Assembly: GCA_949710005.1 (NCBI GenBank)
Contig: OX453279.1
Coordinates: forward strand, 14,769,256 to 14,833,255
DNA length: 64,000 nucleotides
Reading direction: 5' to 3'
Origin: Ricordea florida
Lineage: Eukaryota; Cnidaria; Anthozoa; Corallimorpharia; Ricordeidae
Made by a program: the position numbers and the translations under genes. The first letter of the stretch is position 1, and each line of letters starts with the position of its first letter. The notes beneath the pieces were generated by a model, which saw only the letters and a program-made list of their open reading frames with translations, had not been told where the DNA came from and searched no databases. Shown one piece after another: positions 10,368 to 52,312 of this stretch.

Positions 10368-10377
10368 GAGTCAAGTT

Positions 10378-15283: not shown

Positions 15284-15775
15284 CGTGCTCGTGATGACTA
15301 GCCAGTGGTTTTGACTGGTTGCCGGTGACCATCTCGTGCTGACTAGCCAGCGGTTTTGACTGGTCGCCGGTGACCATCTCGTGCTGACTAGCCAGTGGTT
15401 TTGACTGGTTGCCGGTGACCATCTCGTGCTGACTAGCCAGTGGTTTTGACTGGTCGCCGGTGACCATCTCGTGCTGACTAGCCAGTGGTTTTGACTGGTC
15501 GCCGGTGACCATCTCGTGATGACTAGCCAGTGGTTTTGACTGGTCGCCGCTGACCATCTCGTGCTGACTAGCCAGTGGTTTTGACTGGTCGCCGGTGACC
15601 ATCTCGTGATGACTAGCCAGTGGTTTTGACTGGTCGCCGGTGACCATCTCGTGCTGACTAGCCAGTGGTTTTGACTGGTCGCCGCTGACCATCTCGTGCT
15701 GACTAGCCAGTGGTTTTGACTGGTCGCCGGTGACCATCTCGTGATGACTAGCCAGTGGTTTTGACTGGTCGCCGG
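15284..15775. repeat. 45-bp minisatellite, about 11 copies
   Basis: Tandem 45-bp units of the type CTCGTGCTGACTAGCCAGTG followed by GTTTTGACTGGTCGCCGGTG and ACCAT. Because 45 is a multiple of three, two minus-strand frames remain open for the whole array (15-residue repeats with GDQSKPLAS). Units differ at a few positions (CTG or ATG; GGTG or GCTG), with a mixed order of variants. Each unit contains small inverted motifs such as CCAGT/ACTGG. It sits in an intron of the START-domain gene, so translation is unlikely. Confidence 0.9.
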
Positions 15776-19989: not shown

Positions 19990-20366
19990 ATGAACCTTAT
20001 CCCAAGGGAGTTGTTGATCTTGATATTTCTTATTTTCCTTGTATACAAAATTCATTGCCAACTTCCAAAGCTGCAGCCCGGCGATGTGGCTCCATCATTT
20101 TCACTGCAAACGGTACAAGGTAGAATCGTCTACAAAAAGGTTCTTTCAAGCTCCAGACCACCCAAACATCCTGTCATCTTCCACCTTTTCACCAAACGTT
20201 CAGCGTTCTTGCAAGCATTGTGGAGCAATGACACTTCATTGCACGAGTTTATTGAACACACTCCGGGAAACACTCATTTTGTTTTCATGTCATCCTCTGA
20301 CTCGACGGACGACGTTCTGTGGATGAGAGAACGCCTCCACAACGCCATTGATAAACATTTCAAAAG
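19990..20366 (+). CDS. PNGase F-like gene exon 1: signal peptide and thioredoxin-like start
   Basis: ATG 19990 was chosen because it directly precedes a hydrophobic signal (LLILIFLIFLVYKIHC); the open frame before it has no ATG. After cleavage the protein starts QLPKLQPGDVAPSFSLQ, the usual opening of AhpC/TSA-type thioredoxin folds, but the later segment FTKRSAFLQAL lacks the catalytic Cys. Donor AAAAG/GTAAG leaves phase 2. Confidence 0.85.
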
Positions 20367-23300
20367 GTAAGAGGAGAGCTCTGCTAGCTTAAGCCGTTAC
20401 CAGACATGTTGTTTGCAAATGACGAGCTAATTCACTTCCCCCAGCCTGCGGCTCGATGGTCTGGCGCCATTTTACTCACTAGCTTCAAGTTGTTAAGTGA
20501 AAATACTAGGGGAAAATAGAAGGACTGCTTATAGTTACAGTGTAAAAGTAATAATACTCGACCTCGGATAATTCCTGGCTGGATCCCTTGTGGTCCTTTC
20601 ACATCACCGCAAATAATTAATTCGATAGCCATTGTACAGAGAAGGCGTACTAGTGATAGAATATGGTGTGACACGTTATGTTTTTGTATGAGATGTTTTT
20701 GTATGACAGAGTCACTTGGGTGGTGGTCGCCTGAAGAAGACTAGCAGTAAGGAGTCGAAACGTCACAACCACCACCCAAGTGACTCCGTCGTGAGACCAT
20801 AGAACTAATTTATATTATCACTTATCTTTTTACTTAACTACTGATAGCAGTGGTTGAAATATAACACATTACTACAAGGCTAAGAATCCCAACTGGCTGG
20901 ATGTGAACCTATTTTGTACTTTGTTTTAAGAAATTTTCTAGTCAGCTTTTGAAAGACAAAAACATTCCATGTCATTTCAGTTTTTCTAATGGAATTATTT
21001 GCAGTGTAATTGACTGTTGACCTTTTTTCAAATCACTATCAGGTCTGCTGATGCCTGCCACCCCCACAGGAATGCAGACAAAAGCCATGTACACCAAGAT
21101 AGTGAAACAGAACCTTTTTTAAAATTATCATGGTCAAAACGAAATCACGTTGACAAGGTGTTAAATAAATGTCACCAAAACCTAGCTGCCCGGTGGAAGA
21201 AGCGACTTCACTTTGTAAGCCTACCATTATATGACTTTGGAAACTGGATTCCATATGCTTTAATGCACTGGCCTTGTTTTGGATCAGGTTGCGCTCTTGC
21301 TCAAGTTGTCATCAAATCAAAAGAAGGTATGATTATTACTAATTGTAATTACATGTATTTTTTAGTATGAAATACTGATACTTTGTTGCAAGAATTTCTC
21401 AAAAATAATTTTATTATGCACTCCAACATACACTAACACATGTAAATTTTCCAAAGACTTAAATGTGCATAAGCCCTTTGGGTGAATGCTAAGTATTTGT
21501 TACTTTTTGAAAATTTGCAAAAGCTTATTTGTTGCAAATTGCAGTGGAAAACATTTGATTTCTTGTTGATAACAGACATGCAACAATTTCAATTGAAAGG
21601 TTTGCACTCAGTTTCATCTTTCTGCTTTGTTTCATGATTAATTGACATGTTCTCAACCAGTCAGCGGCGCGGGTTCAAAGTTTTATAAGCTTGTACATTA
21701 TTAAGATCTGTTATTTAGATTGAAATTCACTCTGTAGGCATGACAAGAATAGGCTTAGTAAATTATGTAAAAGATATTAGTTGCACATTTACAGAAATGA
21801 CTTCAGCTGTAAGAGGTTATACCAGGGTTCATGCTACTCCTTAATCTCCTTAAAAACTCCTTACATTTGATTTACGTTCTAAACGGCGCTTAAAAACTCC
21901 TTAAATTTATAAAGTTCAGCAAAAACTCCTTAAGAACTCCTTATATCTTGTCTAACAAAGCTCCATCATTAAATTTTAGCAGAAAACATTTCACATGTTA
22001 GATGGTGTTTATACTTTCATTGACATTATACATTTTTGGGGGAAGTTCCATGTCGTGTTTTGATGTTATGTTCACGTTATTCACAATATTTCTTCTGTTT
22101 CATCATTATTATTAAATTTATATTCAATTATACAACAGTAGCATATTGTGCATGAATAATAAATAGAAACAATGGCAGTTATTTCTTTTTTTTTTCAAAG
22201 AAACAAACAAACAAAGTACTCCTTAAATATTGTATTTTGTCCTTAAAAAGTCCTTAAAAAGTCCTTAAATTCTGTTTACTCACCCCAGCACGGACCCTGT
22301 TATACAGACTTGGAAATTTGGGATGGTGGAATTAAAGTTGGCCAGAGCACATTTTGGGCATGAGAGCTGACAGGGAATTCTCTTTAAGATGAGAGAATTA
22401 GGGTCATGCAAGCAAAATTAACGTCTATTTATGAATTTTAAGATTATTATTGATAATACATGACTTTGTATAGTATTCATAGTTTGTCACCTCTTATTCT
22501 AGTAGTATATGAGAAGACTATTAAATTTTCTTTTTAGGGATAGTCTTGGACTAATTTAAAATGTTGTTGTCGCCCAAGTAAATTCACTACATGGAATTCA
22601 GTACTGTCAGTGGCATCAAATTAACAATATTGATGTTTGTAGTTGTGATCTGTCTCTATTAGGTGAGGTTGTTCTTGTGGCTCAAAGACTTGATGCAAGA
22701 TATGACTGGCTCCCCTCACCCCATACACTCCTCAAAAAAAATGGTTCTCATTTACTTGTTGCTTTTTATGGACAAGCGTGTCAGTTCAAATCAGAGTGGA
22801 AGAACAATATTCAGAACAAGGACAAAGGAAGCAATCAAAAGTCTAAGAAGAACATTGGTGGTAGAATTGCTGTCGTGGCACCTGGTGGACAGTGTACAAT
22901 ATTCACCAAGGTATGGTTAATAAAGATGTTTTAAAGTTGTTGGTGATGTAACAAGGCTTTTTGTACCCTAAACAGCGGGTTGCTGTCCTATCTTGTAGAC
23001 ATTGAGGCTGTGTTTGGTGGTGTTGAGATACAAACTGCTCTGTTTTGGGAACAATGACACAACTGAAAAAGTCTATAATCATATTGTCCATTCCTGTGTA
23101 TGAGGTGTGTGTGTTTCGACGATATATACAAGAGCTCAACGTTTTTATTTCATGGTAAAAAACACTTAAATATGACCGCGATAAAAATGACAGATTAAAA
23201 TAACTCGACAGATGTCACTCATATCTTATGCAAAACCTAACGCAGTGCAATGTAACGCTCTCCTCAACAGTGTGTGTTGAGCAGCACATAATTTATACAT

Positions 23301-26300
23301 GTTCACTTGTGTCCTCATTTTCCAGTTTGTGCTACACTGTATATTTGTAAGGTATAGATAATGTTAAATCTTATTTTTGTACTCTCTATACTGTTTATGG
23401 TTTTCTGTTTATACTATAAATAAATCATCCTCCAAGTGATTAATCACCCTGCAGTGTATATCTTTCCAAAATATCATCTGCAGGACTGTGTTAATAAACA
23501 TAAAGCATCTTTAGCTTAGAGCTGTTTGGCTGTTATAATTATCTCTGGATGTTATTAAGTTGTTTTTAATTAATTGAATCATTGTATTAGTTAGTTGTAT
23601 GTACATTCCTCATTTTTTAACTTGATGACTAGCAGCTTGTTTTTGAAATGATGTCTTACCAGAAACTCATAAGACTTGAAATGTGTAAACGCATTTGGAT
23701 GCACCTGTCTTCAACCACAGCTTGTCCACATTCAATCTACAAAGTACCATATTGAGAAAGTACCATATTGAGAAAGTACCATATTGAGAAAGTACCATAT
23801 TGAGAAAGTACCATATTGAGAAAGAAAGAGAAAACCAAATGAACCAATCATGCAGTGCCAACAAACTCGAAGACTGGGACAAGCAGTTTCCAAATATGGT
23901 AGTTGGGAAATATTGAATCTGGACGTGAGTTACATGTTTCAAGTCTTAGGATTTCTGTTATTACCTACATGTATTAAGAGTAGGTTTCCATTCCATTATA
24001 CAGTATGGCAGACTAAGTTACTTTTTTTTAGGCGCATTTGATCATATTTACATGTTAATTTGCGCCTTATAAATATTAAATATTATTATTATTATTATTA
24101 CTTACCAAACCCTTACTTGTGGTATATGTATAGATCCTTCACATGAACAAAGCAGGGGTTGATGCAGTGCTGATCTACCCAAAGGAAGGTGAAGCAATCA
24201 AGGAATTAATGTGTAATGGTCATCAGTGTTTTACACCTCTTCATGTTCCTGCATCAGTGATTTCACACAAGGATGGTGTCCATATAAAGCGTTTATTAAT
24301 GGCAGATATGGAGCTGTATGCTTCATACCAGTACACTCCTCAAGAAAATTACTTCCTAGCCATTGATGGTCAGGGAAAATTGGCAGAAGTAGGCTTGTTT
24401 CTTTTCCCATCAATGAAATTTCTGGCCTATGAAGCCAGATGGTAAGCAATAGACATTCTTCACTACTCCATGCATGCTGTTTTAATTCTATAACAGTTTT
24501 TTTCATTGTAAAGGGCGTTTTGAAATTTGATCAATATAGAGCTATAAATGAGGAATAATAATTATTGTTATGTGTTATGTGTAGTAACATCAGCACCCCA
24601 GACTCTTAGGGCTGTACCCTAGAGTCTGGATACTCAAATTGAATTTGAATTAAGAAATTATTTGTGAAAAAGGATTTGGCTATATAGAGTCAATAAATCA
24701 CACAGACCACCATTTTTACTCAATTTATATTTTACCTCTATTAAGCGGCCACTTTCCAAAGTCCCGATGGTGGCCGCTTAATAGAGGTTGCACTGTAATA
24801 GATAGGAGAATATTATTTTTTAGATTTTTTTAAAATAGAGAATGGCGAGTGGCAAGAACAATATCTCATGAGTGAATGCAGCAAGTAGTGAGATGTTCTT
24901 GCCATGAGAGCATAAAATTCATATCTTTGAGCGAAACTGTAATTTTCTTTTTATTATAGAGATAAAAACACATTAATTTAATATGTTTGTTTGGCAGCTT
25001 TGTACACAAACTGAATTGTGCAAGGCAGGAAATGACGTCATCAACATCTTCTACAGTATTTAAAATATGCCACTGCAATCATGGATGTAGTTTCGTATGA
25101 ATTTTATGACACGTGTAATTCCCAGTAAAACACTCAAGTCTATATAATAAATAGATTTTATTAAATTCAGTTATCATTTTGTTGGAGGTACCCTTGACGT
25201 GGCTAACCTCTGGTACCGGTCTTTCATTTTTATATTTTATACTGTATGTAGATATGTATAAATGTAAAGTATTACATAGTTAGAGAAATATTCCATTAAG
25301 ATGTAAATACATGCATACTTTCAGAGCTGATTCTAATTGACCATTTGCTAGGTATCTAGAGACAGTGAGGGGCTCAGTACCAATCTGTTTAGTGGCCTAT
25401 AAAGCTAGGACTTGCAGACTCGCAACTCTTAATTTACCACTTTATATCCACCAGCGCTTGGATGAATGAGAAACCTCTTCAGAAAAGTTCAAAAGGTTTG
25501 AAGGCCTTAAATGATGTACAGTGGGAAAATAAGTGTGTGATTCTGGAGTGCCCTTGTTGAAAATTATGTAAAATTTCTACTGTTAATTTTTAAGTTTCTC
25601 TCTTTTTATTGTCTGTTTATTTCTATTGTTTTCAGGTTAAACTATAAGACAGATTTAATTCACAATTTGACCAGTAGTGCAAAGATAATCCACGTGTTTA
25701 ACCACACCCTAATGGAAGGAGAGGCTGGAGCAGTGAGGACCATTGCCCTTCCTGCACCAGAAGGTCAGTCCATTCCTTACATATTAACTCCATAGTGAAA
25801 GCATACTTACCTAAAGGCTTGCAGTTCCCTGCACATAGCTACACGGCAGGGTTTTCAATAAGAATTGTAGTAGCAGGAGAATTGTGTAAAGTATCTGGAG
25901 AATATTCTGAAAGCGCTCCATGTCTGAATTTAAAACTAGCTCAGGTCATCTAAATTTGGCCAGTAAATTCTTCTTAGTAGCCGGAGAATTCTCCGAACTC
26001 CGATACCTAATGAACACCCTGCATGGTATCACTGATATAATGTAACAACGAATCAAGGATGTCCAGTAATATTCAATACTGATATGTACCGTAATACATA
26101 TATGTTTGGTCAAGATGGCTGCATATTAGTCAAGTTCTCTTTTGCGTTATTATTGAAAGAGACCTAGTCGAGGTCAATAAAAACGCAAAAAAAAATATTA
26201 TTAAAAAAACATATATTCTATTCCATGAGGTCAAGGAGAACGAGCAGATATTTCCACTACGTTTATAACATGACAGCAGGACCGGACCTGTTTCTGATGC

Positions 26301-27067
26301 AGTATTTTTGTGGTATGATCATGGTCCGTTTTCTAAGGTCTCTTTTCCCCCAACTGGTAATGACGACCCCAAAAATCTGCCGAACAAAACTTATCCCTTC
26401 TTCCTACAAAAAATTCCAGGATATGAACACTACCCAAGCCCATTTTAAAGAAACGGTTAACGTACACAAGCTTGATAATGATATATCCTTTGCTTCATAC
26501 TGTGTTACGAGTTTTCCCTTCTATTTACAGTGCAGACACTCGAACCATGAATGCGAGAAGCCTTTTTGAGACATTTCTGAATCTCGGCATTCTTTTGAAG
26601 GGCAACCCTAAACCATGGAATCCGGAAACGGAAACGGATTTTCTACCCCCTCGCTTTGCGTCCCATGACAATTTGCCTTCTTTATTGGAAATACTACATC
26701 CAATACACCATGCAAGTACCAGTTCAGTCTTCTTTGCATCAGCATCTTCTCTTCTATGCTACTATATTAGTTATAGACCATACTATATCAGTTCTCCAGT
26801 GTCATGCATCAAACGAAGACACATTGTGACACTTCCCCGGCCGAGCTCTAAAATGACGAAAACCAGCTTAGCTTCCAGGCATCGTGAAGACAGATTCTTT
26901 TGGACTGAACTCTTTCTGGAAAAGAGGCCCTCTCTGTGTATTTATTTTACTGTATCTGTTTAATTTCTTTATTCAAATCAATGACTTGAAAGCTTTTTTA
27001 CGGTCAGGGTTTTGTTTCCGTTTCCGTTTCCGGATTCCGCATTCCGTGGTTTAGCGTTGCCCACTTA

Positions 27068-27126
<59 letters not shown>

Positions 27127-27226
27127 GGGGTGGGTCGTGGGTGGGGCTAATATTTTATCGATTTAGTTAAAATTCATTCAACAGAATTCATTCATTTCAC
27201 CCAAAGACAAAAGTGAAATCAGAGAC

Positions 27227-27261
<35 letters not shown>

Positions 27262-39200: not shown

Positions 39201-39830
39201 AATGTCACTGATCAACACTAACTTTATTTTTACTTACCAGCAGAGGGAGATACTGTTACTTTTACTTTTGATACTTTATTTATTCATTTTTGACCGGCAC
39301 TGCGAGCACAGATTAATTTTAATTAAAAAACACGGCTAATAGCCGTGTTTCTGATCCTGGTTTTATATGGAACCTTCTTTCAGGAGGAAGGTTGCTAACA
39401 TTTCGCTCGTTGTTTTTTGTGAGTTGATCAAGCGTTTGACCTGAACATAACTTCCCAAACTCCTTGGAGTGAACCGCATGTTAAGAGATTACATCATCCT
39501 GCAAGTAATGACTGTCTCTGATTTCACTTTTGTCTTTGAGTGAAATGAATGAATTCTGTTGAATGAATTTTAACTAAATCGATAAAATATTAGGCTCACT
39601 AAACCTAGCTGATACAATGATTTTGGGATGAACCATAATACCTTAGAGTGGGAGAAGGGTTTTATAATGTTTATGTATTATTTTAATAATAAAAATAAAA
39701 ATAATTGTAAGTCAACTTAGACCATAATTAATAACAACTACTATAATATATTTATATTATCATTAGTTTTCTATTAATAATATTAATATGAATTATCATT
39801 ATTAATTGTTAATTATTAATATTACTGACA

Positions 39831-39865
<35 letters not shown>

Positions 39866-42800: not shown

Positions 42801-45800
42801 ATACAGAAGGTGAGGTAACAAGCTGTTGGTTGAGCGAAATGATGTGCCACGCTGCTCGGTGTTCTGTTGTTTATGCTTGGTTTGACAAGTTATATCCTTA
42901 GGGTATTTATTTGGCTATAATGCTCCATTCAATTGAAACCAAGCCCCCCCACCTGACCCCCGGGACATAGCGGGGGAGTAACGGGGGTATGGCCTTGAAA
43001 AAACGTTATTGTAATAAATCATTTTCCCGGGGGGACGGGGCCAGTAATGCTTTTGCCGATTTGCCGGAAAATGGGAGCGGGGCTTGCAACGCCCGGCCCG
43101 ACAGAGAGGGTATGGGTCCGAGTATCAAAAATCACGCTTCCTTGTTACGTGAGTCGTTACGTGACAAGGTGGAGGAAACGTCTATGTGAAAGAGAAGATA
43201 AGCTACATCCTTTGCTATCTTCCTTATTTCAAAGCCATCACTAGGTTTTAATAGAACTCAGAAATAAATGTTTTGTTGCCTAATTCTGTGTATATGTAAA
43301 AGACTGGTCAACTATTATGGAAACCAAGTCTCTAAAAAAAATGTACAAACCGGGGTTCATGAGGGCGGGGATTGTACCAACATACTTTCCCCAATGGGCG
43401 GGGTAATTAACAAATGTAACACTTTAAAATTGTTTTATTCCCCGTTATGTCCCGGGGGTCGGGGGCCGTGGTTTCAATTGACTGGAGCGTAACTAAAGAG
43501 TTTTCTTCTCTGATGATGAATGCTGTAAGTGAAGTGTATTGTAGAATTAGAAATCATGTAACTCGACACTTCAAACTGTAATCTTATGATATAAGAATTG
43601 AAATGAATCGAACCAGAGCCTTACTGATCAGTAAAACTGTAGCATCTTAAATCAAAATGAACGGAACACCCTATGTGGGTATGTGTGTTATTTGATTGAT
43701 CTTTCTCATCATTCTTCCTCATTATTGCCTGCCTTGACAGACATCTTCTGATACAAGTGCCAACGTTAGAGATGTTCGCTTTTAACAGGTGTCCACTTCA
43801 GAGGGGTTTAATCGCAGTTTTGTTCAAAGAGAAACCTGATAAATTCGGTTGGGCCAAGCCATCAAAGCCTGGCTTATAAGAGAATTGGCTGTACATTCCT
43901 TTACAGCAGAATAAGCGAGAACGTCAGGCTACTATGTTTCTGTTACGTAGTGGAGGCCTTGAAAATGTGTCAACACGAGACTCTTCATTGTCTTTGAACT
44001 GTCAGAGAACTGAGAGGACCGACAACTATAACACACAAGATCAGTAGCAATCCAAACCCCTCGACCACTGTTTGCTAAGCTATTTGCATAGTTACAACAA
44101 TTCTTTATTAGATCGAAGAAATTCTAACATTACAAAGCTTTTGCCCGCAAATAGCAAGGGCTATTCGAGGCGGGCGAAAGAGGAAAAGACAATTTAAAAG
44201 TCACAATTAATACTCTGTACAGAACAAACCTAGAAGCAATCTAGTTTGTCGTGGGAGGCGGACCATAATGAATACTCGGAGTAACATACAATGTTATGAT
44301 TTTGAGAATCGTACTCGTGTATTAGAAATGTTTATGTAATGGTCTCCGTTTTTCAGGATTCCAAGGAGTTTATTCTTTAGTTCGCTTTTAAATTGATTTT
44401 TATTTAAAGTTTTGATAGAGAGTGGAGTGCTGTTCCAAATCAGGGCGCCTGAGATAGAGAAGGCTTTTTTCATATTTTCAGCTCTAGCTTGCTCAACATA
44501 ATAATTCTCGTTAGAAACAGATCTAGTCCAGTAACTATGGACACAAGACAGTTTCCTGAAGATATTCTTAACGTTACTAGGAGTAAGATTATTATGGACG
44601 TCGTACATTAATTGACTCATTTGCTCAAACAGCAAGAATGATATTGGCAACTGCTTTGTTTCTAAGAATAATGGGTCTGCATGAGCTCTTGCTCTCATTT
44701 GGAGAATGAGTAGCTCATGAAGGTGTGTTTCAGCAGCTTGATCCCAAGTGCAGATATCATAGTTCAGACAGGGTAGAATTAAAGAGTTTGACTAATGGTC
44801 GTGGTTGTGGGTACAAGTCATGGGGTCGTGGGTGTGAGTAATTAATAATAAGATTAGTAGTAATAAGGATTAATAATTATAATAATAATAATAATAATAT
44901 TTAGTGGGGGAATCCAACTCGCCAAAGGCGGTTTTCAGTGGAGCCCTCCTATGGTTTATAGTTCATTTTTAATAATATTAATAGTACTACTAATAATAAT
45001 TATTTTTATTATTGTAAAGAAAAAAGGATTTTTGCGTGATCCATAAAAGGCCCTTTTTGACATGGCTGTTATTTTTTTTTCGTGAAAAGTGATTAGATAT
45101 ACTATCCTTAAGCAGTGAATCGCCTTTTTTCATGGAAATTGAGACTTTTTTTTACGAAACGTGACTTGAACTGTCATTGTTTCTCTTCCTTTCAAAATAT
45201 TATCCAGTACGCGTTTCAGAACAAGACTACCTGAAGAAACATTACTGTGACTAAAATAATCATATTTCTGCGCCCAAGGTCTCTATTTGAATAGTATATT
45301 TTATCTTCGTTTAGTGAAATGGCTATTTCATTTTGGGTGAAACGTGATCTTAGACAGCGAGGTTTCAATCAAAATGAGATCAACAGGCCTTTTTATTCAC
45401 TAGTCTTGCCAAAAATTACGTACGGCCATTCTATCTATGGCTCATCACCTGCAGAACTTTGTACAGTACAACGGTCCCTAACCAGATGCTTTAAGAGAAA
45501 ATATTGCTCTTCACAGCTATGTATTTATAATTTGTTGGAGTAAAGTGGCAAGCAGAGTTTTCAAAAAGTTAGAAAGCTACGTAACCACCCACTAAGTGCG
45601 TTAATACCAACTATTAGAACTTCTTTATTTACTTATTTCAATAATTTTTCATATTAATTTATTTTATGATTTAGAAAACGACCTGGCTATTTAAATGGAC
45701 GAAGAGAAATTTTTAAATTGTAATCGGTCCTTTGTTTGATTTATTGTCACCAATGCCAGTCCTCGTGACCAATTAGTAAAGGCCTGCGACTTGCGGCTTT

Positions 45801-47125
45801 CGCTTGTACCGCACACTGGATACCAGTGGTTTTGTGCTCCTGCGCAACTATAATAATAATAATAATTTTATAATAACGGAAAATCCTTGGAGCCAGCATC
45901 TCCAGACTTGCAGCTAACGTGCTAACGTTACAACTTTGTTATCTATATATTGGCTTATCTTGGAACAGTTCATTGATGCTGGGTAGATGGTACGGGGATT
46001 TAAGATGAAGCAATCGGTTCTTTGTCTGAATGTCATGGTTTAACATAAGCTTTATTTCCCGGCAGGCAGAAGGAGATACGGTTTCACTTTTACTTTTGAT
46101 CACTTATTTATTTTTAACCGGCACTGCGAGCACGGGTAATACCTGTGTTTCTGATCTGGTTTTATATGGAAGCTTCTTTTATGTTCTGAAAACGTTGCTC
46201 TTTTAAGTGTAACACTTCACTCTTTTTAGTTTGATCTGAACAAAACTTCTCAGACTCTTTGGAACGACCCACAAATAATGGCTTTGTCTTTGGTTTCACT
46301 TTTCTTTTTTGGTGAAATAAGTGAATTCTGTTGATTTAATTTAACTAAATCAATGAAATATTAGTCTCACTAAACCAAGACGATACAATGATATTGGGAT
46401 GAACCATAATACTTTAGAGTGGGGTAAGGGTTGTATAATATTTATGTATTATTATGAGTACGATTACAGACCGAATTGGATGACACGAAGTTCTGTTACC
46501 AATTAATCACAACTCTAACAAAATGTGTGTTATATAAAGCTGTATAAAACACAAGAAATTCCAAGATTTGTTTTTGAGCTGGCAGTGAAAAAAGCCATTT
46601 AAACGCATGCGTGATGGCGCATACTGTCGAATTACCAAGGCATGACGTGTACTGTCCTATTAAGGCTGAAATCAGGGCAGTTGATAGCCAATCAGATTTG
46701 AGAATTTTGTTGTAGTTATGATTAATAACAAATACCGCTTCCAATATTAATTAGATTAGATTATATTATATCAGGAATCGGCGCCTTATTGTATTAAATT
46801 ACATTATTATTATGCGGGATGACGTAGTCAGCCAGCATATAAAATTCGGTAGCGCATTCCTTTCGTCATCTTGGGAGTCAAAAATTGCCTTGTTTTTTTA
46901 ACTTTCCCGTATCCTGAGCCCGTCCCGAAAAAATTGTGTGATTTTTATTGGCTGTAACTCTGAATCACGTGCAAGTCAGGTTGGATTGCACCATGGATAT
47001 CCATGATTGCACAATCAGCAAAAATACATACTGCGTCAGCAATTTTAAACCAACACATCCCGCGTAAACGCCTTCAGGCGTCTTCTTGTTCCTTTATTAA
47101 ATGTAACTTTTAGTAATATTATAAC

Positions 47126-47166
<41 letters not shown>

Positions 47167-50100
47167 ATTACCCACACCCATGACCCACGACCCACGACCC
47201 ATGACCACTAGTCAAACTCGCGATATAAGGTGAGAAGTACATGACGGGCAACGAAATGTCTAACCTTGGCAATAATCCCGATTGTTTTCCTGACTTTTTG
47301 ACAAATGTCGTCTGTATTGTATTTCCAGGAGAGGTTCGCGTCAATGAGTATACCAAGATATTCAATATAATTTTTCATTTCAAATGGTTGGCTAGTGTTG
47401 GAGTTTTTATTTATTCTAATATTGGGATGAAAGGAAAGAGTATTTTGACGTGGACGAGAGATGATATAGTTAGATTTTTCGGCATTTAAGGTTAGTTTAT
47501 TGACAGGTAACTATGTATACACTTTGGAAAGTTCTTTGTTAAATTCAAATTCAAGTTTTTTTAAGATCATCGGCAAACAAGTAGAAATGGAAGATTTGTA
47601 TAAATCATCGATATACAAGAGAAAAAGCAAGGGTCCCAGCACAGAACCTTGAGGAACTCCTCAGAGGGTTAGATTAACATCAGATACATAACCATCAACA
47701 GTGGTCTCTATACTGTCTGCGACCAATTAGATATGACTTACACCAGTCACTAGTGATTTACCAGTCCTCTGAAGCCATAGCTTTCAATTTTAGAGAGAAG
47801 AATATCATAGTTAGCCGTGTCTAAAGCCTTTTTTAGATCAATCATTTAACAATTAGTTAATTGGCCTTTATCAAAATTAGTAAGAGTGTCATTCAGGATT
47901 TCTAGAGTGACGTGGTGTGTGTTATGCCTACCGCGGAATCCATATTGAGATAAAAATATTATTTTGTCAACAAACTTCATGAGTCTTTTATAAGCCAATT
48001 TTTCAAATATTCTATTGAAAATTGATAACAAGGAAATTATTCGATAATTTCCTGGCTAAGACTCATCTCTAGATTTGAAAATCGGAACAACTGGGAAAGA
48101 GCCTGTGGATACTGAGACACTGAAGATTTGAGCTAAGGGTTGAGAGATAATATGACGAGACAGTTTCAAAATACTGACTTGACATGAATAGAGTTCACAG
48201 GCTTTGTTGTTTGGCAGCATTTTCATTTCAGCTTCAACGTCTGCGGGAACGAAAGGATCAAAATAAAAAAAAACTCACTATTGGCAGGTCTAAAAAAGTG
48301 CTAAAGTCATGATCTGGTGGCAGAGAAGGTTTACAAGAAGCTAATTTATGTCCACTTGCTGTCATCCGAACATAATCCACTTGCTGTCATTCGAATATAA
48401 TCCGCTTGCTGTCATCCTAATCCACTTCCTGTCATCCGAATATAATCCACTTACTGTCATCCTAATCCACTTGCTGTCATCTGAATATCATCTGCTTGCT
48501 GTCATAATAATCCACTTCCTGTCATCCGAATATAATCCACTTGCTGTCATCCCAATATAATCCACTTGCTGTCATCCCAATATAATCCACTTGCTGTTAT
48601 CCTAATCCACTTGCTGTCATCCGAATATAATCCACTTGCTTTCATCCCAATATAATCCACTTGCTGTCATCCTAATCCACTTGCTGTCATCCGAATATAA
48701 TCCACTTGCTGTCATCGGAATATAATCCACTTGCTGTCATCCTAATCCACTTGCTTTCATCCGAACATAATCCACTTGCTTTCATCCCAATATAATCCAC
48801 TTGCTGTCATCCGAATATAATCCACTTGCTGTCATCCGAATATTATCCACTTGCTGTCATCCTAATCCACTTGCTGTCATCCTAATCCACTTGCTTTCAT
48901 TCCAATATAATCCACTTGCTTTCATCCCAATATAATCCACTTGCTGTTATCCTAATCCACTTGCTGTCATCCGAATATAATCCACTTGCTTTCATCCCAA
49001 TATAATCCACTTGCTGTCATCCTAATCCACTTGCTGTCATCCGAATATAATCCACTTGCTGTCATCCGAATATAATCCACTTGCTGTCATCCTAATCCAC
49101 TTGCTTTCATCCGAACATAATCCACTTGCTTTCATCCCAATATAATCCACTTGCTGTCATCCGAATATAATCCACTTGCTGTCATCCGAATATTATCCAC
49201 TTGCTGTCATCCTAATCCACTTGCTGTCATCCTAATCCACTTGCTTTCATTCCAATATAATCCACTTGCTGTCATCCGAATATAATCCACTTGCTTTCAT
49301 CCCAATATAATCCACTTGCTGTCATCCTAATCCACTTGCTGTCATCGGAATATAATCCACTTGCTGTCATCCGAATATAATCCACTTGCTGTCATCCTAA
49401 TCCACTTGCTTTCATCCGAACATAATCCACTTGCTTTCATCCCAATATAATCCACTTGCTGTCATCCGAATATAATCCACTTGCTGTCATCCGAATATTA
49501 TCCACTTGCTGTCATCCTAATCCACTTGCTGTCATCCTAATCCACTTGCTTTCATTCCAATATAATCCACTTGCTTTCATCCCAATATAATCCACTTGCT
49601 GTCATCCTAATCCACTTGCTGTCATCCAAATATTATCCACTTGCTGTCATCCTAATCCACTTGCTTTCATCCAAATATAATCCACTTGCTTTTATCCCAA
49701 TATAATCCACTTGCTGTCATCCTAATCCACTTGCCTTCATCCGAATATTATCCACTTGCTGTCAATCCTAATCCACTTGCTTTCATCCAAATATAATCCA
49801 CTTGCTGTCATCCTAATCCACTGGCCTTCATCCGAATATTATCCACTTGCTGTCATCCTAATCCACTTGCCTTCATCCGAATATTATCCACTTGCTGTCA
49901 TCCTAATCCACTTGCTTTCATCCCAATATAATCCACTTGCTGTCATCCCAATATAATCCACTTGCTGTCATCCTAATTCACTGGCCTTCATCCGAATATT
50001 ATCCACTTGCTGTCATCCTAATCCACTTGCTTTCATCCGAATACAATCCACTTGCTGTCATCCCAATATAATCCACTTGCTGTCATCCCAATATAATCCA

Positions 50101-51962
50101 CTTGCTGTCATCCCAATATAATCCACGTGCTCTCATCCGAATATAATCCACTTGCTGTCATCCTAATCCACTTGCTGTCATCCAAATATAATTCACTTGC
50201 TGTCATCCGAATATAATCCACTTGCTGTCATCCTAATCCACTTGCTGTCATCCGAATATAATCCACTTGCTGTCATCCGAATATAATCCACTTCTATTCT
50301 AATCTAGGTTTCGTAATGAAAATTTCTTGCAATTTTGAGGTCTCTATTTACCAGAGCCTTTGTTACTTCAAGTAATACTTGTGCCGTAATTGTCATGATT
50401 ATTTAAAGTGATACATAGTTATGGTTAAGTCAGCATACGAAACCGGTCAAAGAAATAAGTCATTCCAAGTGACAACATCTCCCCAACGTCTAAAGAACAA
50501 AACAAAATCGAAATCAGTTTCTTAAATCAGTGTTCATGGGATCTAGTATCGCTCATTAACTTCATTTTTTGGGTTAGAATGGGGATGCAGTGTTCTTAAG
50601 TAGGTTTGTAAAAGGCGTACTATTTTCCAGTGGAGGATATACGAAAAGGGTACTATTTGTCAATGGAAGGCATACGAAAGGGGTATCTTTTCTGCCAAAA
50701 ATGGTAAACAAAAGGGTAAGGGGTTGGACCTCGGGTCGGAGCCTCCACGTATTTAACTTTTTAGTACCCCCTCCCCCCTCCCCCCGTGCACTAACACAGT
50801 GACAAGTGTATTGGTACGAGAGAACACTGTCCAGATGAAAATTGGCCAGCGGCGTACACCAAAAATGGTATACAAAAGGTTAAGGGGTTGGACCTCGGGG
50901 AGGAGCCTCCCCGTATTTAACATTTTTTAGTACCTTCCCCCCGGTGCACTAACACCTCCAGTGACAAGTGTATTGTACGAGAGAGCACTGTCCAGATGAA
51001 AATTGGTCAGCGGGTTACACCAAAGAATGGCGGAAGTGACTTTTCCTTTACACGTACGTTCTTTTTTCAGAGGTGTGGGTCGCTGGCTGACAAACGTTAC
51101 TCCTCTTTTGCCGCTCTTCACATCCAAAACTTGTACTTTACGAATGAAACATCCTCGCTGGGAGAGAGCGTGGAAACCTTCCCTAAGCATCAGGCTTTCT
51201 GATCACATAAACTGTGAGTACCAACCTATAATTTCTTTAATTACAACAAATAGCCTCCCCCCCCCCCCCCTTACTCTGCTGTTCCTGTGTTATTATTCAG
51301 TAATGGTCACTCTTGCTTAGGAAACCGATTGATTACGTGGAACTCGGCATCCACGCAGCATCTTATTATTAACACTTGTTAGAATAATCAGATCAAAGTG
51401 TTTTGTGTATCTTCTACCAGTTTCCAGGCATCATTACAGTGGAACACAAGAGGAACAATTCAATGTCCCTTATAAGATTATAAAGTTATTCCGTGGTGGA
51501 AAATTTGACAAGAGCTACAATAAAAAGTACCACAGGCTGGCATTTAAAGTTGACTCAAAGGCCGTGCAAGTCAAACTTGTCGCAACAATTACAGGTCATG
51601 GTAGTGATAACAATGGCTGTGCCGAGTTTTGTGTGACTTCGCATCACTTCGTCATAAATGGTTTTACGAATGTTAAGGTGTTTAAGAACGCTGCCACCGC
51701 AATGGGATGCGCTAACAGAGTAGCAGATGGTGTTGTACCAAATGAACATGGTACGTGGCTTTATGGTCGGGATGGCTGGTGTTGTGGAGAAGATATTGTG
51801 CCTTGGGTTGTCGATGTTTCGCAACAAGTTGATTTTGAAGATGAAAATGAAATAAGATATTTTGGCTGGTTTAATGGGACGGATCCAAACCCCATTAGAG
51901 ACCCTGGGGAAATCGTCATGCGTTCTTATTTAGTCTATTACAAATCTGTAGAAGCACAGTGA
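19990..51962 (+). CDS. Secreted PNGase F-like N-glycanase with thioredoxin-like and PA domains (8 exons, 732 aa)
   Basis: Predicted peptide-N4-(N-acetyl-beta-glucosaminyl)asparagine amidase, which would cleave N-glycans from Asn in the secretory or extracellular space. Exons: 19990-20366, 21043-21326, 22663-22910, 24134-24441, 25636-25763, 42641-42809, 51071-51213, 51421-51962. All seven joins keep phase and GT/AG, giving 2199 nt. Layout: signal peptide (1-23), AhpC/thioredoxin-like segment (from about 28) without a peroxidatic Cys, PA domain (about 215-358), PNGase F N-terminal domain (about 420-552) and C-terminal domain (553-732). The last shows GCAEFCVTSH, MGCANR and GTWLYGRDGWCCG, closely matching bacterial PNGase F (GCAEWC, LGCSAN, GNW..DRAGWCPG). 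Candidate catalytic residues are D476 (in CPHWD) and E621 (in GCAEFC). Introns 5 and 6 (16.9 and 8.3 kb) are swollen by transposons. Activity is inferred. Confidence 0.88.
20709..20786 (+). ncRNA. Hammerhead-like foldback in intron 1
   Basis: A 19-bp inverted repeat (GAGTCACTTGGGTGGTGGT at 20709-20727; partner ending at 20786) encloses CTGAAGA (20731), a GACT/AGTC stem, GAAAC and GTC. This is the order stem I, core, stem II, core, cleavage triplet of a type I hammerhead with a two-base-pair helix III. A non-paired CGC/ACA lies between stem I and the core, and there is one extra A after CTGAAGA, so activity is uncertain. Confidence 0.5.
21043..21326 (+). CDS. PNGase F-like gene exon 2
   Basis: Acceptor TCACTATCAG and donor AAG/GTATGA; phase 2 in, phase 1 out. 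It completes Arg and continues through SADACHPH, a basic segment and LYDFGNWIPYALMHW to IKSKEG. It probably completes the thioredoxin-like region and leads into the PA domain. Cysteines are present but no CxxC. Confidence 0.8.
21817..22304. mobile_element. MITE-like element rich in CTCCTTAAAAA
   Basis: The ends TTATACCAGGGTTCATGCT (21817) and AGCACGGACCCTGTTATA (to 22304) are imperfect inverted repeats. Subterminal regions repeat CTCCTTAAAAACT-type motifs. It is non-coding, in intron 2 of the PNGase F-like gene. Confidence 0.65.
22663..22910 (+). CDS. PNGase F-like gene exon 3: PA domain, first part
   Basis: Acceptor TCTCTATTAG, donor AAG/GTATGG; phase 1 in, 0 out. It encodes DWLPSPHTLLKKNGSHL and, at its end, GGRIAVVAPGGQCTIFTK, the typical PA beta-strand segment (G-K/R-I-V-V-x-x-G-x-C-x-F-x-x-K). 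A Lys/Asn-rich insertion precedes it. Confidence 0.85.
23741..23823. repeat. 16-bp tandem repeat, about 5 copies
   Basis: Direct repeats of AAAGTACCATATTGAG, nearly identical between copies, in intron 3 of the PNGase F-like gene. Confidence 0.9.
24134..24441 (+). CDS. PNGase F-like gene exon 4: PA domain, second part
   Basis: Acceptor TGTATAG, donor GATG/GTAAGC; phase 0 in, 2 out. It reads ILHMNKAGVDAVLIYPKEG, then VPASVISHKDGVHIKRLL, matching the PA pattern A..AGA.AVI.Y...(I/V)P...I...G..L. It then leads into YFLAIDGQGKLAEVGLFLFP, the linker to the glycanase domain. Confidence 0.85.
24734..24788. repeat. Perfect 19-bp hairpin (GCGGCCAC type)
   Basis: ACCTCTATTAAGCGGCCAC (24734-24752) is repeated in perfect reverse complement at 24770-24788 around a 17-base loop; a short foldback element in intron 4. 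Confidence 0.85.
25636..25763 (+). CDS. PNGase F-like gene exon 5: start of the glycanase N domain
   Basis: Acceptor TGTTTTCAG, donor AAG/GTCAGT; phase 2 in, 1 out. It encodes LNYKTDLIHNL and IHVFNHTLMEGEAGAVRTI, then LPAPE, corresponding to the first strands of the PNGase F N-terminal eight-stranded jelly roll. NLT and NHT are potential N-glycosylation sites. Confidence 0.8.
26600..27062. mobile_element. MITE with GGCAAC...AATCCGGAAACGG termini
   Basis: Left end GGCAACCCTAAACC with AATCCGGAAACGGAAACGG is mirrored by the right end (GTTTCCGTTTCC ... GGTTTAGCGTTGCC). The element is about 460 bp. It lies directly beside the start of the foldback unit at 27069. Confidence 0.75.
27150..27610 (-). 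repeat. PLE terminal segment, inverted copy 1
   Basis: About 460 bp containing CACGGCTATTAGCCGTG and GGTACCATCTACCCCGCATC-type sequence in reverse orientation to 39140-39605, with only scattered differences. On the minus strand it directly follows the end of the PLE reading frame (stop near 27685), so it looks like the PLE 3' terminal sequence. Confidence 0.75.
27611..27734 (-). pseudogene. PLE C-terminal remainder beyond the LINE insertion
   Basis: The minus strand reads KRGKSLKDTLVRVKI then a stop. This continues exactly where the PLE frame at 33503 (ISYKR) is interrupted, showing that 27735-33502 was inserted into this PLE. TCTCTTA at 27728-27734 is one copy of the target duplication. Confidence 0.8.
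27927..29086 (-). pseudogene. LINE RT, 3' part (catalytic core to C terminus)
   Basis: The frame resumes after the inserted element with NNRSVILLLLNLSAAFDTVDH (RT motif A near its start), then GVPQGSVLGPLLYSLYTS, the catalytic box FHLYADDTQLYLSF, the thumb motif NLGVAFD, and the C-terminal KLPLQIR...FKANLKTYLF. It ends at the stop at 27927. Typical of CR1/L2-clade LINEs. Intact in itself but separated from the N-terminal RT by 2 kb. Confidence 0.88.
29089..31079. mobile_element. 1991-bp inverted-repeat element with TA target duplication
   Basis: The ends CCCGTACGAA (29089) and TTCGTACGGG (to 31079) are inverted; the flanks are TA (29087-29088 and 31080-31081). Deleting the element and one TA restores the LINE RT frame exactly (KA-IDNNRS). 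Subterminal regions are packed with GCGCTGC/AACGCTG motifs in both orientations. No transposase frame is visible (the 96-codon minus frame at 30318-30608 has no match), so it is non-autonomous. A TA duplication would suit Tc1/mariner-like and some other groups; the terminal motif is not one I know. Confidence 0.85.
31082..33484 (-). pseudogene. LINE ORF, 5' part: signal-like N terminus, NPGP motif, AP endonuclease, RT start
   Basis: ATG 33484 opens MAAGVVHVLLIYFIFLAYS, a signal-peptide-like start. An NPGP motif (HVDISSNPGP, 2A-like, codons at 33143-33154) follows about 110 residues later. Then comes an apurinic-type endonuclease (LLNSRSIRNK, ALTETWL, frameshift near 32610, IYRPPSSV, VGDFNLHVD, SDHYAIF) and the RT N terminus (FRPVSNLYFLSKVTEK, YKSHHSTETAL). 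The frame is cut by the 29089-31079 element. Confidence 0.85.
33503..35060 (-). pseudogene. Penelope-like element RT (minus strand, frameshifted)
   Basis: Minus-strand frames 35025-34678, 34684-34391, 34484-33777 and about 33776-33503 are consecutive pieces of one PLE protein. Motifs: KEADKGTTT, IPIFYTLRKIHKP, TTLVSMDVTRLYTNIP, LQTHGTAMGTKMAVA, HIDDVISFW (catalytic box), FLDTIVYKG, then RKKTQKRLLLFVTTYHP. Several frameshifts show it is dead. The 3' continuation lies at 27611-27734 beyond the inserted LINE. No GIY-YIG endonuclease is seen in this copy. Confidence 0.85.
35071..35174 (+). mobile_element. tRNA-derived SINE, 5' part (split by a LINE)
   Basis: A-box-like TTAGCTCAGTTGGTAGAGC (35073-35091) and B-box-like GGTCGCGGGTTCAAAACCCC (35111-35130) form a tRNA-related RNA polymerase III promoter head. 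The sequence breaks at TGAGGAAAAAG (35164-35174), which is repeated at 38859-38869 where the SINE continues. It is not a functional tRNA: no proper acceptor stem. Confidence 0.85.
35175..38858 (+). mobile_element. Full-length CR1/Rex1-like LINE inserted in a SINE
   Basis: Bounded by 11-bp duplications TGAGGAAAAAG / TGAGGAGAAAG. The element is about 3.68 kb with a 13-base 5' UTR, one ORF, a short 3' UTR ending in a TGCGCAATT/AATTGCGCA hairpin (38787-38822) and a (TTA)n tail. The intact ORF and near-identical flanks suggest a young copy. Confidence 0.9.
35188..38709 (+). CDS. LINE polyprotein: NPGP motif, AP endonuclease, reverse transcriptase (1173 aa, intact)
   Basis: The ATG at 35188 is the first in frame and lies 13 bases from the element's 5' end. 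A hydrophobic N terminus (AVFVILLLAR) and a Trp-rich region with two NNW.DF..NELLS repeats are followed by a 2A-like VFKLNPGP (NPGP codons 35686-35697). The endonuclease follows: LCLLNSRSVRNKS, VTETWLNS, IIYRPQSD, VVGDFNIHVD, HTLDLVITR, YFSDHASVL. RT: FKNFRPVSNLAFLSK, LLDLSAAFDTVDHDIL, CGVPQGSCLGPLL, HCYADDTQLYIS, KNLGVWLD. The C terminus is HITPLLKSLHWLPV and LWNDLPSEIR. It replicates by target-primed reverse transcription. No frameshift or stop: potentially active. Confidence 0.93.
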   Translation: MSDGHGFCCSAVFVILLLARCSDDGLDYRKSCLTAWSTALSIKSIDNIANSRESSGFYIWSASTWSFGGLNISATNNWCDFEKNELLSPKYTNNWWDFNDNELLSSWHIWEDAIWYPDTCHLSYCGLECVASSFCKIKRSKRPCSYYSNSSATFHCLLEGDLVFKLNPGPTNCDDISNFQSHHSSSRHVPLSSQSRNPSNLITVNRLPFNKYSNELLSLCLLNSRSVRNKSAAIFDYICECKADLIAVTETWLNSHDDAVRAELCPDGYKLLDQARTCRQGGGTALLFRDSLAVKKVDGGTKVSFEFSEWTVQVASSHDLRVVIIYRPQSDSDDRRIPMTTFFTEFSDYLETIVLCKEQLVVVGDFNIHVDVPDDSDSTKFLELLESFSLQQHVMGSTHIHGHTLDLVITRQSDQIVRSTPRIDRYFSDHASVLCHLHSIKPSFSTRTLSFRKLKSVNVETLNDDLAKSDLCKNPPDDLDELVLSYNKTLTAVLDKHAPVKTRTIVVRPRVPWYTDEIRHAKRERRKAERRWRLSKLNSDLVAFKIKRNAVNNLLNKARQAFYTNFIEENSFDQRKLFRASKRLFNQSQDDGLPPNLHALTFANDLGKYFVTKIDTIRRQIDADIADLAVPVASNTVNSNAMAIPTLSAFKTLSDKDVKSLILNSALKTCPLDPMPSRLVSKCDALLPVITSIVNKSLEAGHFPESWKEALVCPLLKKPGLDIIFKNFRPVSNLAFLSKLTEKAVFHQIHEHMVDMGLYPIAQSAYRENHSTETALLKVKNDILLNMNKQHVNLLVLLDLSAAFDTVDHDILLTALNKRKLGGRAFEWFRSYLSGRCQRISVRGCQSESFSLNCGVPQGSCLGPLLFTIYTSSLLDAIQDYLPSVHCYADDTQLYISFSPADETGHSDAIAAIEFCIQVIRNWMHDNKLLLNEDKTEFLLIGTKQQLAKVNISHVTVGKANIAPQSPVKNLGVWLDSNLSMVDHITKTSSAAFYHLYNIRRIRRFLTKDCTETLIHAFISSRLDYCNSLLFGVPERQLQKLQRVQNAAARLIFQESRYCHITPLLKSLHWLPVRYRIVFKILLITFKAVHGLAPAYISELISVRESAGRYYLRSNNGLRLNYSSCKSLATLGDRSFHVAAPKLWNDLPSEIRSKTSVQSFKKAIKTFLFSKAF
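38859..39117 (+). mobile_element. tRNA-derived SINE, 3' part with LINE-like tail
   Basis: Continues the SINE after the LINE. It ends with TTGTAATGCGCATATG...ATATGCGCAATATAA and (TTA)n. This tail resembles the 3' end of the LINE inserted in it, including a hairpin (39051-39083) with a paired base change relative to the LINE hairpin. Confidence 0.8.
39140..39605 (+). repeat. PLE terminal segment, inverted copy 2
   Basis: Reverse-complement partner of 27150-27610, carrying GATGCGGGGTAGATGGTACG and CACGGCTAATAGCCGTG. A more diverged copy in the same orientation lies at about 45975-46430. Confidence 0.75.
40031..40817. mobile_element. G/C-tipped inverted-repeat element with short minus-strand ORF
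   Basis: The arms at 40031-40070 and 40778-40817 are near-perfect inverted repeats (CCAGCAGTGCCCATCCCCCC type). The core is AT-rich and contains a minus-strand open frame (40530-40721) with FSEKDEAFVEQWLVRQG, which looks protein-like but is unrecognised and has no visible start context. Non-autonomous. Confidence 0.75.
40863..41353. mobile_element. Inverted-repeat element with GGTACTCCCAT termini
   Basis: GGGAGGGTACTCCCATAT at the left end and ATTTATGGGAGTACCCCCC at the right end are inverted. The interior has repeated TAGATAGGG/CATTTTT-type motifs and no ORF. About 490 bp. Confidence 0.7.
42641..42809 (+). CDS. PNGase F-like gene exon 6: catalytic Asp exon
   Basis: Acceptor TTTCGTTTATAG, donor GAAG/GTGAGG; phase 1 in, 2 out. 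It reads ELRLYRNVELDMSLFCPG, then CPHWDHVVHLTVCC, then GRWITPYR. CPHWD aligns with the CDEWD of bacterial PNGase F, whose Asp (D60) is the main catalytic residue; here it is D476, codon 42721-42723. GRWITPY matches the bacterial GRFITPY. Confidence 0.88.
42922..43488. mobile_element. C/G-tipped inverted-repeat element
   Basis: The left arm GCTCCATTCAATTGAAACCA is mirrored by the right end TGGTTTCAATTGACTGGAGC, with matching ACCCCCGGGACATA blocks just inside each end. The element is about 567 bp; small frames inside lack any match. Confidence 0.75.
44290..44783 (-). mobile_element. LINE RT C-terminal part (continued at 47220-48345)
   Basis: The minus strand reads ILPCLNYDICTWDQAAETHL, then the C-terminal LINE module (SYWTRSVSNENYY, ISGALIWNSTPLSIKTL). 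It is the downstream half of the RT whose upstream half lies at 47220-48345; the two halves were separated by the unit at 44784-47219. Confidence 0.8.
45319..45543 (+). pseudogene. Short RT C-terminal fragment
   Basis: Encodes WVKRDLRQRGFNQNEINR, LPKITYGHSIYGSSP and VQRSLTRCFKRKYCS, the LINE RT region where ..LP.I.Y......... precedes the ..QR...R motif. Only about 75 codons remain, isolated inside the foldback unit. Family uncertain. Confidence 0.55.
45860..46430 (+). repeat. Diverged PLE terminal segment, third copy
   Basis: Starts with a block also found at 34985-35070 (AGCATCTCCAGACTTGCAGC) and continues directly into GGGTAGATGGTACGGGGAT and CCGGCACTGCGAGCAC, matching 39140-39605. It therefore shows what the uninterrupted junction looked like before the SINE landed at 35071. 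Confidence 0.7.
46480..47095. repeat. Dispersed repeat, copy 2 (inverted relative to 13845-14548)
   Basis: Reverse-complement copy, nearly identical over its length, without the 86-bp internal duplication found in copy 1. It forms the right part of the 44784-47219 unit. Confidence 0.75.
47220..48345 (-). mobile_element. LINE RT N-terminal and core part (broken)
   Basis: The minus strand contains IFEKLAYKRLMKF, LSQYGFRGRHNTHHV, a motif A relative DLKKALDT, GVPQGSVLGPLLFLLYIDD and FADD, spread over frames with several stops. The C-terminal half lies at 44290-44783. Dead copy. Confidence 0.8.
48350..50290. repeat. 1.9-kb minisatellite of 25-bp and 20-bp units
   Basis: Alternating units TCCACTTGCTGTCATCC plus GAATATAA (25 bp) and TCCACTTGCTGTCATCCTAA (20 bp), with recurrent point variants (GTC/TTC; CGA/CCA). 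Blocks of about 360 bp recur, showing a higher-order pattern. Non-coding; short frames reading HLLSSEYNPLAVI are by-products. Confidence 0.95.
50694..51020. repeat. 165-bp tandem duplication beside exon 7
   Basis: A unit starting CCAAAAATGG and including AAGGGGTTGGACCTCGGG, TTAGTACC, GTGACAAGTGTATT and CTGTCCAGATGAAAATTGG occurs at about 50694-50858 and 50859-51019. The end of the array lies 50 bp from the exon 7 acceptor. Confidence 0.85.
51071..51213 (+). CDS. PNGase F-like gene exon 7
   Basis: Acceptor TTCTTTTTTCAG, donor ACT/GTGAGT; phase 2 in, 1 out. It reads GVGRWLTNVTPLLPLF, TCTLRMKHPRWERAWKP and SIRLSDHIN, equivalent to the PNGase F stretch that carries TETW and closes the N-terminal domain. 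The secondary active-site Glu of bacterial PNGase F (E118, in TETW) has no obvious counterpart here by eye. Confidence 0.85.
51421..51962 (+). CDS. PNGase F-like gene exon 8: C-terminal glycanase domain
   Basis: Acceptor CTTCTACCAG (the alternative TTTCCAG seven bases on is out of phase). The exon encodes 180 residues: VKLVATITGHGSDNNGCAEF, CVTSHHFVING, ATAMGCANRV, GTWLYGRDGWCCGEDIVPWV, then strands to the TGA at 51960-51962. GCAEFC contains E621 (codon 51624-51626), equivalent to E206 of bacterial PNGase F. Cys positions match those of the bacterial domain. Complete C terminus. Confidence 0.92.
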
Positions 51963-52306
51963 AAATCTCGACATTGCATGCTTTTATCAACCGTTAGGTT
52001 GAATATGAAGTTAGGGATGTTTAGTGATGGTTAATTTTTTTAATTATTTCCCGATTTCAAAGGCAAAGCCAAATACTGTACAATACTACATTATCACGCA
52101 AAAAAGTTCTATAGTTTTCAATATTTTTTTACCTGGTGAGGTTTTTTGAGCTTTTTTTACTACAATCGCCGCCTAATGTTCAAAGTTTATAACCACCTTA
52201 TCATTATAATAGACTTTGTATATATGTACAATTGGTGCATTGGTTTGCTGCAGACCGCACATTACCCTCCCTCCCCCATGCCCGGTTTTCTTAGTCAATC
52301 GCTCTT

Positions 52307-52312
52307 AATAAA
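52307..52312 (+). terminator. Polyadenylation signal AATAAA of the PNGase F-like gene
   Basis: AATAAA 345 bp after the stop codon; the first clear signal downstream. The rest of 51963-53046 holds no other recognisable gene. Confidence 0.5.

Follow-up and report, generated by a model that had tools for sequence, protein, structure and literature searches.

We confirmed that the window, the whole stretch of 64,000 nucleotides of Ricordea florida DNA analysed here, contains a real and apparently intact eight-exon gene on the plus strand (19990–51962). Judged from sequence comparison, this coral gene is very probably an ortholog of zebrafish ngly2 that works as an endolysosomal acid PNGase. It is a member of an already described family, known to include Anthozoa, and is not a discovery. 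A 2025 study of zebrafish introduced the Ngly2 family and gave orthologs for Anthozoa, Scyphozoa, Hydrozoa and other, mostly aquatic, animals (PMC12753239). A tree of 1897 PNGaseF sequences has been published in which the putative eukaryotic ones come largely from marine or aquatic organisms (PMC12381499). Our search of the open-access literature for peptide-N-glycosidase F in coral or Acropora found no report.

A preliminary description of this locus had left open whether animal homologues were already catalogued. They are: Ngly2 has been cloned, assayed, solved and knocked out, its Anthozoa orthologs have been listed (PMC12753239), and an oyster member has been produced as recombinant protein (PMC12381499). 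The same two reports count against the statement that PNGase F is known mainly from bacteria. A reading of the locus as a new animal PNGase F was also dropped, since both the family and its Anthozoa members had already been published (PMC12753239). What the locus provides is an apparently full-length Ngly2 gene, with its active site intact, from an early-branching animal. With it one could examine whether the removal of N-glycans at acid pH, in eggs or lysosomes, goes back to the ancestor of animals.

Gene structure and its surroundings

The gene model was rebuilt from the window by joining the eight exons through seven introns, which gave 2199 nt and a protein of 732 amino acids. The joined frame has a single stop, at its end. 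All seven introns are GT-AG, their phases (2, 1, 0, 2, 1, 2, 1) match, and their lengths are 676, 1336, 1223, 1194, 16877, 8261 and 207 bp in order. We then compared the window with zebrafish Ngly2 by tblastn. The query was made up of the zebrafish segments from the HMMER alignment with the joined model, separated by X, and the target was the whole window; the test is independent of the exon joins but not wholly of the first zebrafish comparison. All eight exons were matched, collinearly and on the plus strand, seven of them with E ≤ 0.02 (four of these < 1e-14), and the reversed window gave one match with E 0.63. The coordinates, exon number, consistent phases and protein length proposed in the preliminary description are thus borne out by the rebuilding, with its canonical introns and open frame, and by the collinear matches.

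Exon 1 (19990–20366) carries the start ATG and encodes residues 1–126, with an N terminus that by eye resembles a signal peptide and the first part of a Tx-like domain (E 1.9e-15). Exon 2 (21043–21326) encodes a loop, then the Tx-like domain's second part (RLHF...NWI), and the beginning of the PA region (E 5.4e-8). Acceptor alternatives were scanned for exons 2 and 8. That of exon 2 is ambiguous, the positions 21043, 21070, 21085 and 21103 all being in frame and differing by up to 20 residues; exon 8 has one in-frame acceptor with the modelled donor. Exon 3 (22663–22910) encodes the PA-domain region at residues 221–303 and has just a weak match (E 0.48). Exon 4 (24134–24441) holds what remains of PA, then a stretch (FLAIDGQGKLAEVG) that lines up with the last Tx-like part of the zebrafish protein, and a linker (E 5.7e-20). 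According to the alignment to zebrafish, exon 5 (25636–25763) encodes a linker helix and the start of the PNGase N subdomain (E 0.019).

Exon 6 (42641–42809; E 1.2e-16) contains CPHWDH and GRWITPY and encodes Trp475, the catalytic Asp476 (codon 42721–42723) and His477 (42724–42726). Exon 7 (51071–51213; E 7e-10) completes the PNGase N subdomain and carries the substrate residue Trp535 (codon 51159–51161). The matches to exons 5 and 7 begin slightly 5' of the modelled starts of these exons. Exon 8 (51421–51962; E 4e-54) encodes the PNGase C subdomain, with His612 (51597–51599), the catalytic Glu621 (51624–51626) and the stop codon. Our motif search recovered the signature blocks reported earlier (CPHWD, GRWITPY, GCAEFC, MGCANR and GRDGWC) in the frames of exons 6 and 8. 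A possible polyadenylation signal, AATAAA at 52307–52312 on the plus strand, is the sole AATAAA or ATTAAA in 51963–53000 and is a sequence match only.

The earlier account of two transposon-filled introns is mostly right. It holds for intron 5 (25764–42640, plus strand, 16,877 bp), in which we found three LINE-type stretches and one reverse transcriptase piece that we take to be Penelope-like, a name that we also assume for the GIY-YIG elements of the window. This piece and one of the LINE pieces score under the Pfam RVT_1 cut-off. Within intron 5 lies an uninterrupted LINE ORF of 1180 residues for an endonuclease-reverse transcriptase (35167–38709, plus strand), which is possibly a young insertion. 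For intron 6 (42810–51070, plus strand, 8,261 bp) the account holds in part: there is a 1.9-kb tandem array, and two decayed RT-like ORFs have BLAST matches to LINE ORFs or to a further RT-like ORF in the window, while no Pfam model matched them at E 0.01.

Several other features were observed in the window. A single open frame upstream of the Ngly2 gene (6141–7244, plus strand) matches the POU (5.5e-21) and homeodomain (4.2e-16) families and is apparently an intronless POU homeobox gene. Pieces of an LTR-type retrotransposon lie at 9903–12716 (plus strand), with RT/RNase H, an integrase core and, by eye, a zinc-knuckle-like stretch. Penelope-like elements with GIY-YIG matches are found at 57066–59766 (plus strand) and 61120–62434; in the latter region the same C-terminal stretch seems by eye to occur on opposite strands (61120–62103, minus; 62060–62434, plus), as an inverted duplication. 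Minisatellites lie at 15288–15775 (period 45, 10.8 copies, 96%), at 48351–50293 within intron 6 (period 25, 83 copies, 81%) and at 53757–54692 (period 40, 23.4 copies, 93%), and the 40-bp unit of the last occurs again, inverted, at 63065–63165.

Domain composition and similarity to Ngly2

The 732-residue protein was searched against Pfam. We found matches to N-glycanase_C (PF09113, E 5.6e-30, in exon 8), N-glycanase_N (PF09112, E 1.1e-11) and PA (PF02225, E 1.2e-5, residues 276–353), all exceeding the curated cut-offs. No further family was listed up to E 1, a range in which the HMMER filters drop most weak matches. The PNGase F profiles match the part encoded by exons 6–8, and the preliminary description does not fall on this point; together with the signal-peptide-like start, judged by eye, they agree with its proposal of one gene model encoding a protein of the PNGase F superfamily. 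Seven N-glycosylation sequons are present, and CXXC is absent anywhere in the coral protein.

Among all PDB sequences, the best match by HMMER was 9lwg, zebrafish Si:dkey-256h2.1 (E 1.2e-159), aligned in three collinear stretches across Tx, PA and PNGase. This protein is the zebrafish Ngly2, an acid PNGase found in lysosomes and enriched in the ovary (PMC12753239). The bacterial PNGase F entries gave E 2.8e-9 to 1.1e-8. The label "bacterial-type PNGase F-like" is right only as to deep homology: the nearest solved relative is the zebrafish protein, and PNGase F reaches about 3e-9 at best. Identity between coral and zebrafish is 45% (261 of 581 aligned residues), and within the PNGase domain it reaches 50% (146 of 293 residues). 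The coral model has residues that zebrafish lacks: about 50 in exon 2, within the Tx region, about 24 in exon 3, within the PA region, and 11 within the PNGase domain. Some of these extra residues may be mis-spliced.

From collinearity with 9lwg, for which PMC12753239 describes the topology, the PA domain of the coral protein is predicted to be nested inside the Tx-like domain. A bacterial Tx profile matched the coral part before PA; for the piece after PA it gave 0.1 bits in coral and −2.6 bits in zebrafish with the intact sequences, neither score being significant.

We compared six active-site residues between the two animals. Zebrafish D421, E555, W420, H422, H546 and W480 correspond to coral D476, E621, W475, H477, H612 and W535, all six being identical. 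This result bears on whether the gene is a decayed or non-expressed copy while another, functional copy exists at a different place in the genome. The heavy transposon load of introns 5 and 6 would suit such a copy, but the 2199-nt frame is open, the splice sites are canonical and the tested active-site residues are intact, which makes it quite improbable.

Other candidates were considered for the identity of the protein. NGLY1, the cytosolic PNGase, has a transglutaminase-like core, and it was set aside: the Pfam list up to E 1 has three families, none of them a transglutaminase. The missing equivalent of PNGase F Glu118 was noticed by eye and dismissed as a sign of inactivity: the mismatch is uninformative on activity because the active zebrafish enzyme also has no obvious Glu at this place. 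Bacterial PNGase F proper was rejected in view of the extra Tx and PA parts and of the His at both sites in the coral protein. PNGase A was rejected as well: it carries a PF12222 domain (PMC12753239), and this family does not appear in the Pfam list of three matches up to E 1.

Possible function in the coral

Zebrafish Ngly2 has been shown to possess acid PNGase activity with an optimum at pH 3.5 and virtually none above pH 6; the D421A and E555A mutants are inactive and W480A is feeble (PMC12753239). By cryo-EM it forms a homodimer, with a Tx-like, a PA and a PNGase domain, and a model places the glycopeptide between the PA and PNGase domains (PMC12753239). The tagged protein co-localises with Lamp1, a sign of the lysosome, the mRNA is ovary-enriched, and the free glycans of eggs are reported to be almost gone or mostly lost in the knockout (PMC12753239). 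His422 and His546, near the active site, were proposed to permit the acid activity (PMC12753239).

By analogy with these findings, the coral protein would enter the secretory route through its putative signal peptide and fold into a Tx-like domain interrupted by PA, a linker helix and a PNGase domain of two jelly rolls. It would probably form a homodimer. Within an acidic compartment, for which the endolysosome is the most likely candidate, an extended N-glycopeptide would be bound in the cleft between PA and PNGase. Asp476 and Glu621 would then split the glycosylamine bond by hydrolysis; the N-glycan would leave as a whole and Asn would become Asp. We infer the activity, the acid pH, the lysosome, the dimer and the cleft from the zebrafish enzyme. 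The biological role is the weakest step: processing of glycoproteins or yolk proteins in eggs is probable if the zebrafish proposal applies, but this role was drawn from fish and may not carry over to coral.

The preliminary description had proposed that the protein is secreted and removes N-glycans outside the cell, conceivably for feeding, in mucus or in dealing with microbes. The signal-peptide-like N terminus, seen by eye, and the seven sequons suit the secretory route that such an enzyme would take, and prokaryotic PNGases are typically cell-surface nutrient enzymes (PMC12381499). However, both histidines linked to acid activity are retained in the coral protein, and the zebrafish ortholog is virtually inactive above pH 6 and co-localises with Lamp1 (PMC12753239). 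Because the catalytic and acid-pH residues of the Ngly2 paper are conserved, an endolysosomal acid PNGase appears more likely, and the extracellular role seems unlikely. An RNase B test at neutral pH could well give a false negative.

This has a bearing on assays of other invertebrate members. The oyster enzyme PNGaseCg, made in E. coli, showed little activity on glycoproteins, which its authors explained by the true substrates being untested (PMC12381499). The oyster screen was run at pH 7.0 (PMC12381499), where zebrafish Ngly2 is virtually inactive (PMC12753239), so pH may also matter for the weak oyster activity. The low activity of invertebrate members may be an artefact of pH and substrate.

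Bacterial relatives and comparison with known enzymes

We collected 30 prokaryotic loci with two short peptide patterns in a prokaryote contig collection, a selection by which phyla other than those found are undersampled. As labelled, 18 are myxobacterial, 10 are Deltaproteobacteria and two are "uncultured proteobacterium" (Pseudomonadota in the tree). A different query of the prokaryote contigs found no relative, nor did two of viral contigs. Leaving aside one fragment (L030), 29 loci (L003–L032) were compared, and the Pfam PA family was absent in all of them. The one locus that was modelled (L005, 2886–4574, plus strand) has a Tx-like N-terminal domain and a PNGase domain in its predicted structure. 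The Labilithrix (myxobacterium) enzyme, which was expressed together with those of oyster and Deinococcus, is described as a catalytic module with a flexible linker only; the oyster protein and that of Deinococcus are said to resemble each other in organisation (PMC12381499). Our own narrow search of the open-access literature for a myxobacterial PNGase with thioredoxin or protease-associated parts found none, and it missed PMC12381499.

The active sites were aligned in 34 rows: the two animals, Deinococcus, Hymenobacter, PNGase F and the 29 bacterial loci. No row lacks the catalytic Asp or Glu. The GHG histidine occurs in 33 rows, the exception being PNGase F, which has Trp, and a His next to the catalytic Asp occurs in two, both animals (Tyr in 28 others, Ala in three, Arg in one). 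Thus, in this small sample, just the His after the catalytic Asp seems particular to animals among the two acid-linked histidines. The Ngly2 paper calls the GHG histidine unique to Ngly2 when set against PNGase F (PMC12753239), and PMC12381499 places a histidine in the GHG loop of the enzymes it compares, PNGaseF excepted. We also observed that PMC12753239 pairs Trp420 with Trp191 of PNGase F and the histidines with Trp59 and Arg61, whereas in our alignment Trp420 corresponds to the Trp of EWD, His422 to the Arg after Asp and His546 to the Trp of GWG; two residue labels in that paper look exchanged.

In the tree, coral and zebrafish, the sole two animal sequences, are grouped with a support of 97/100, and with two animal sequences alone the tree is silent on the time at which animals gained the gene. 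Between animals, Deinococcus and the remaining bacterial groups the branching lacks resolution, several end branches being long, and a clade of animals and Deinococcus is neither shown nor rejected (p-AU 0.446). Recent transfer from bacteria, or bacterial contamination, was considered here, the family being present in bacteria and all 30 prokaryotic loci being myxobacterial, deltaproteobacterial or proteobacterial. Against this, the gene has seven GT-AG introns, the large ones with retrotransposons, its PNGase domain is closer to zebrafish (50%) than to the bacteria found (27–42% in the best segments), and the two animals pair in the tree; we regard such an origin as hardly credible.

For the older history of the gene, we offer a tentative reading that is somewhat doubtful in our own view. 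Animal Ngly2 might derive from a Tx-like/PNGase lipoprotein of a Myxococcota-type bacterium, with PA inserted into the Tx-like domain either before animals, as the PA and PNGase of Deinococcus may show, or within them, and with WDY changed to WDH on the animal branch. The WDH histidine is one of two changes proposed to make Ngly2 an acid enzyme (PMC12753239).

Among known systems, PNGase F of Elizabethkingia meningoseptica (1pnf, 3pms) shares with the coral protein the homology of the PNGase domain and the equivalents of Asp60 and Glu206, but it has neither Tx nor PA, and Arg and Trp replace the two histidines. Its optimum is neutral to alkaline (PMC12753239). The bacterial Tx-PNGase loci, besides their lack of a Pfam PA match, have WDY (26) or WDA (3) where coral has WDH. 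Deinococcus radiodurans WP_010889584 (PNGaseDr) resembles the coral protein in combining PA and PNGase (PF02225 E 1.8e-12, PF09113 E 2.9e-35, PF09112 E 1.4e-5) and in retaining Asp, Glu and the GHG histidine; it differs in its identity of about 30%, its WDY for WDH and its N terminus, lipoprotein-like by eye, and it scores 2.8 bits against the bacterial Tx profile, below the inclusion threshold. PNGaseCg of the oyster Crassostrea gigas, likened here by its published description, is like the coral protein an animal member of the PNGase F superfamily in which a protease-associated module covers the active site, and differs in being little active at pH 7.0 (PMC12381499). Zebrafish Ngly2 differs in lacking the roughly 50 (Tx), 24 (PA) and 11 (PNGase) extra coral residues; the two agree in a Tx-like domain without CXXC joined to PA and PNGase, in the catalytic pair, in the acid-site histidines and in the equivalent of Trp480.
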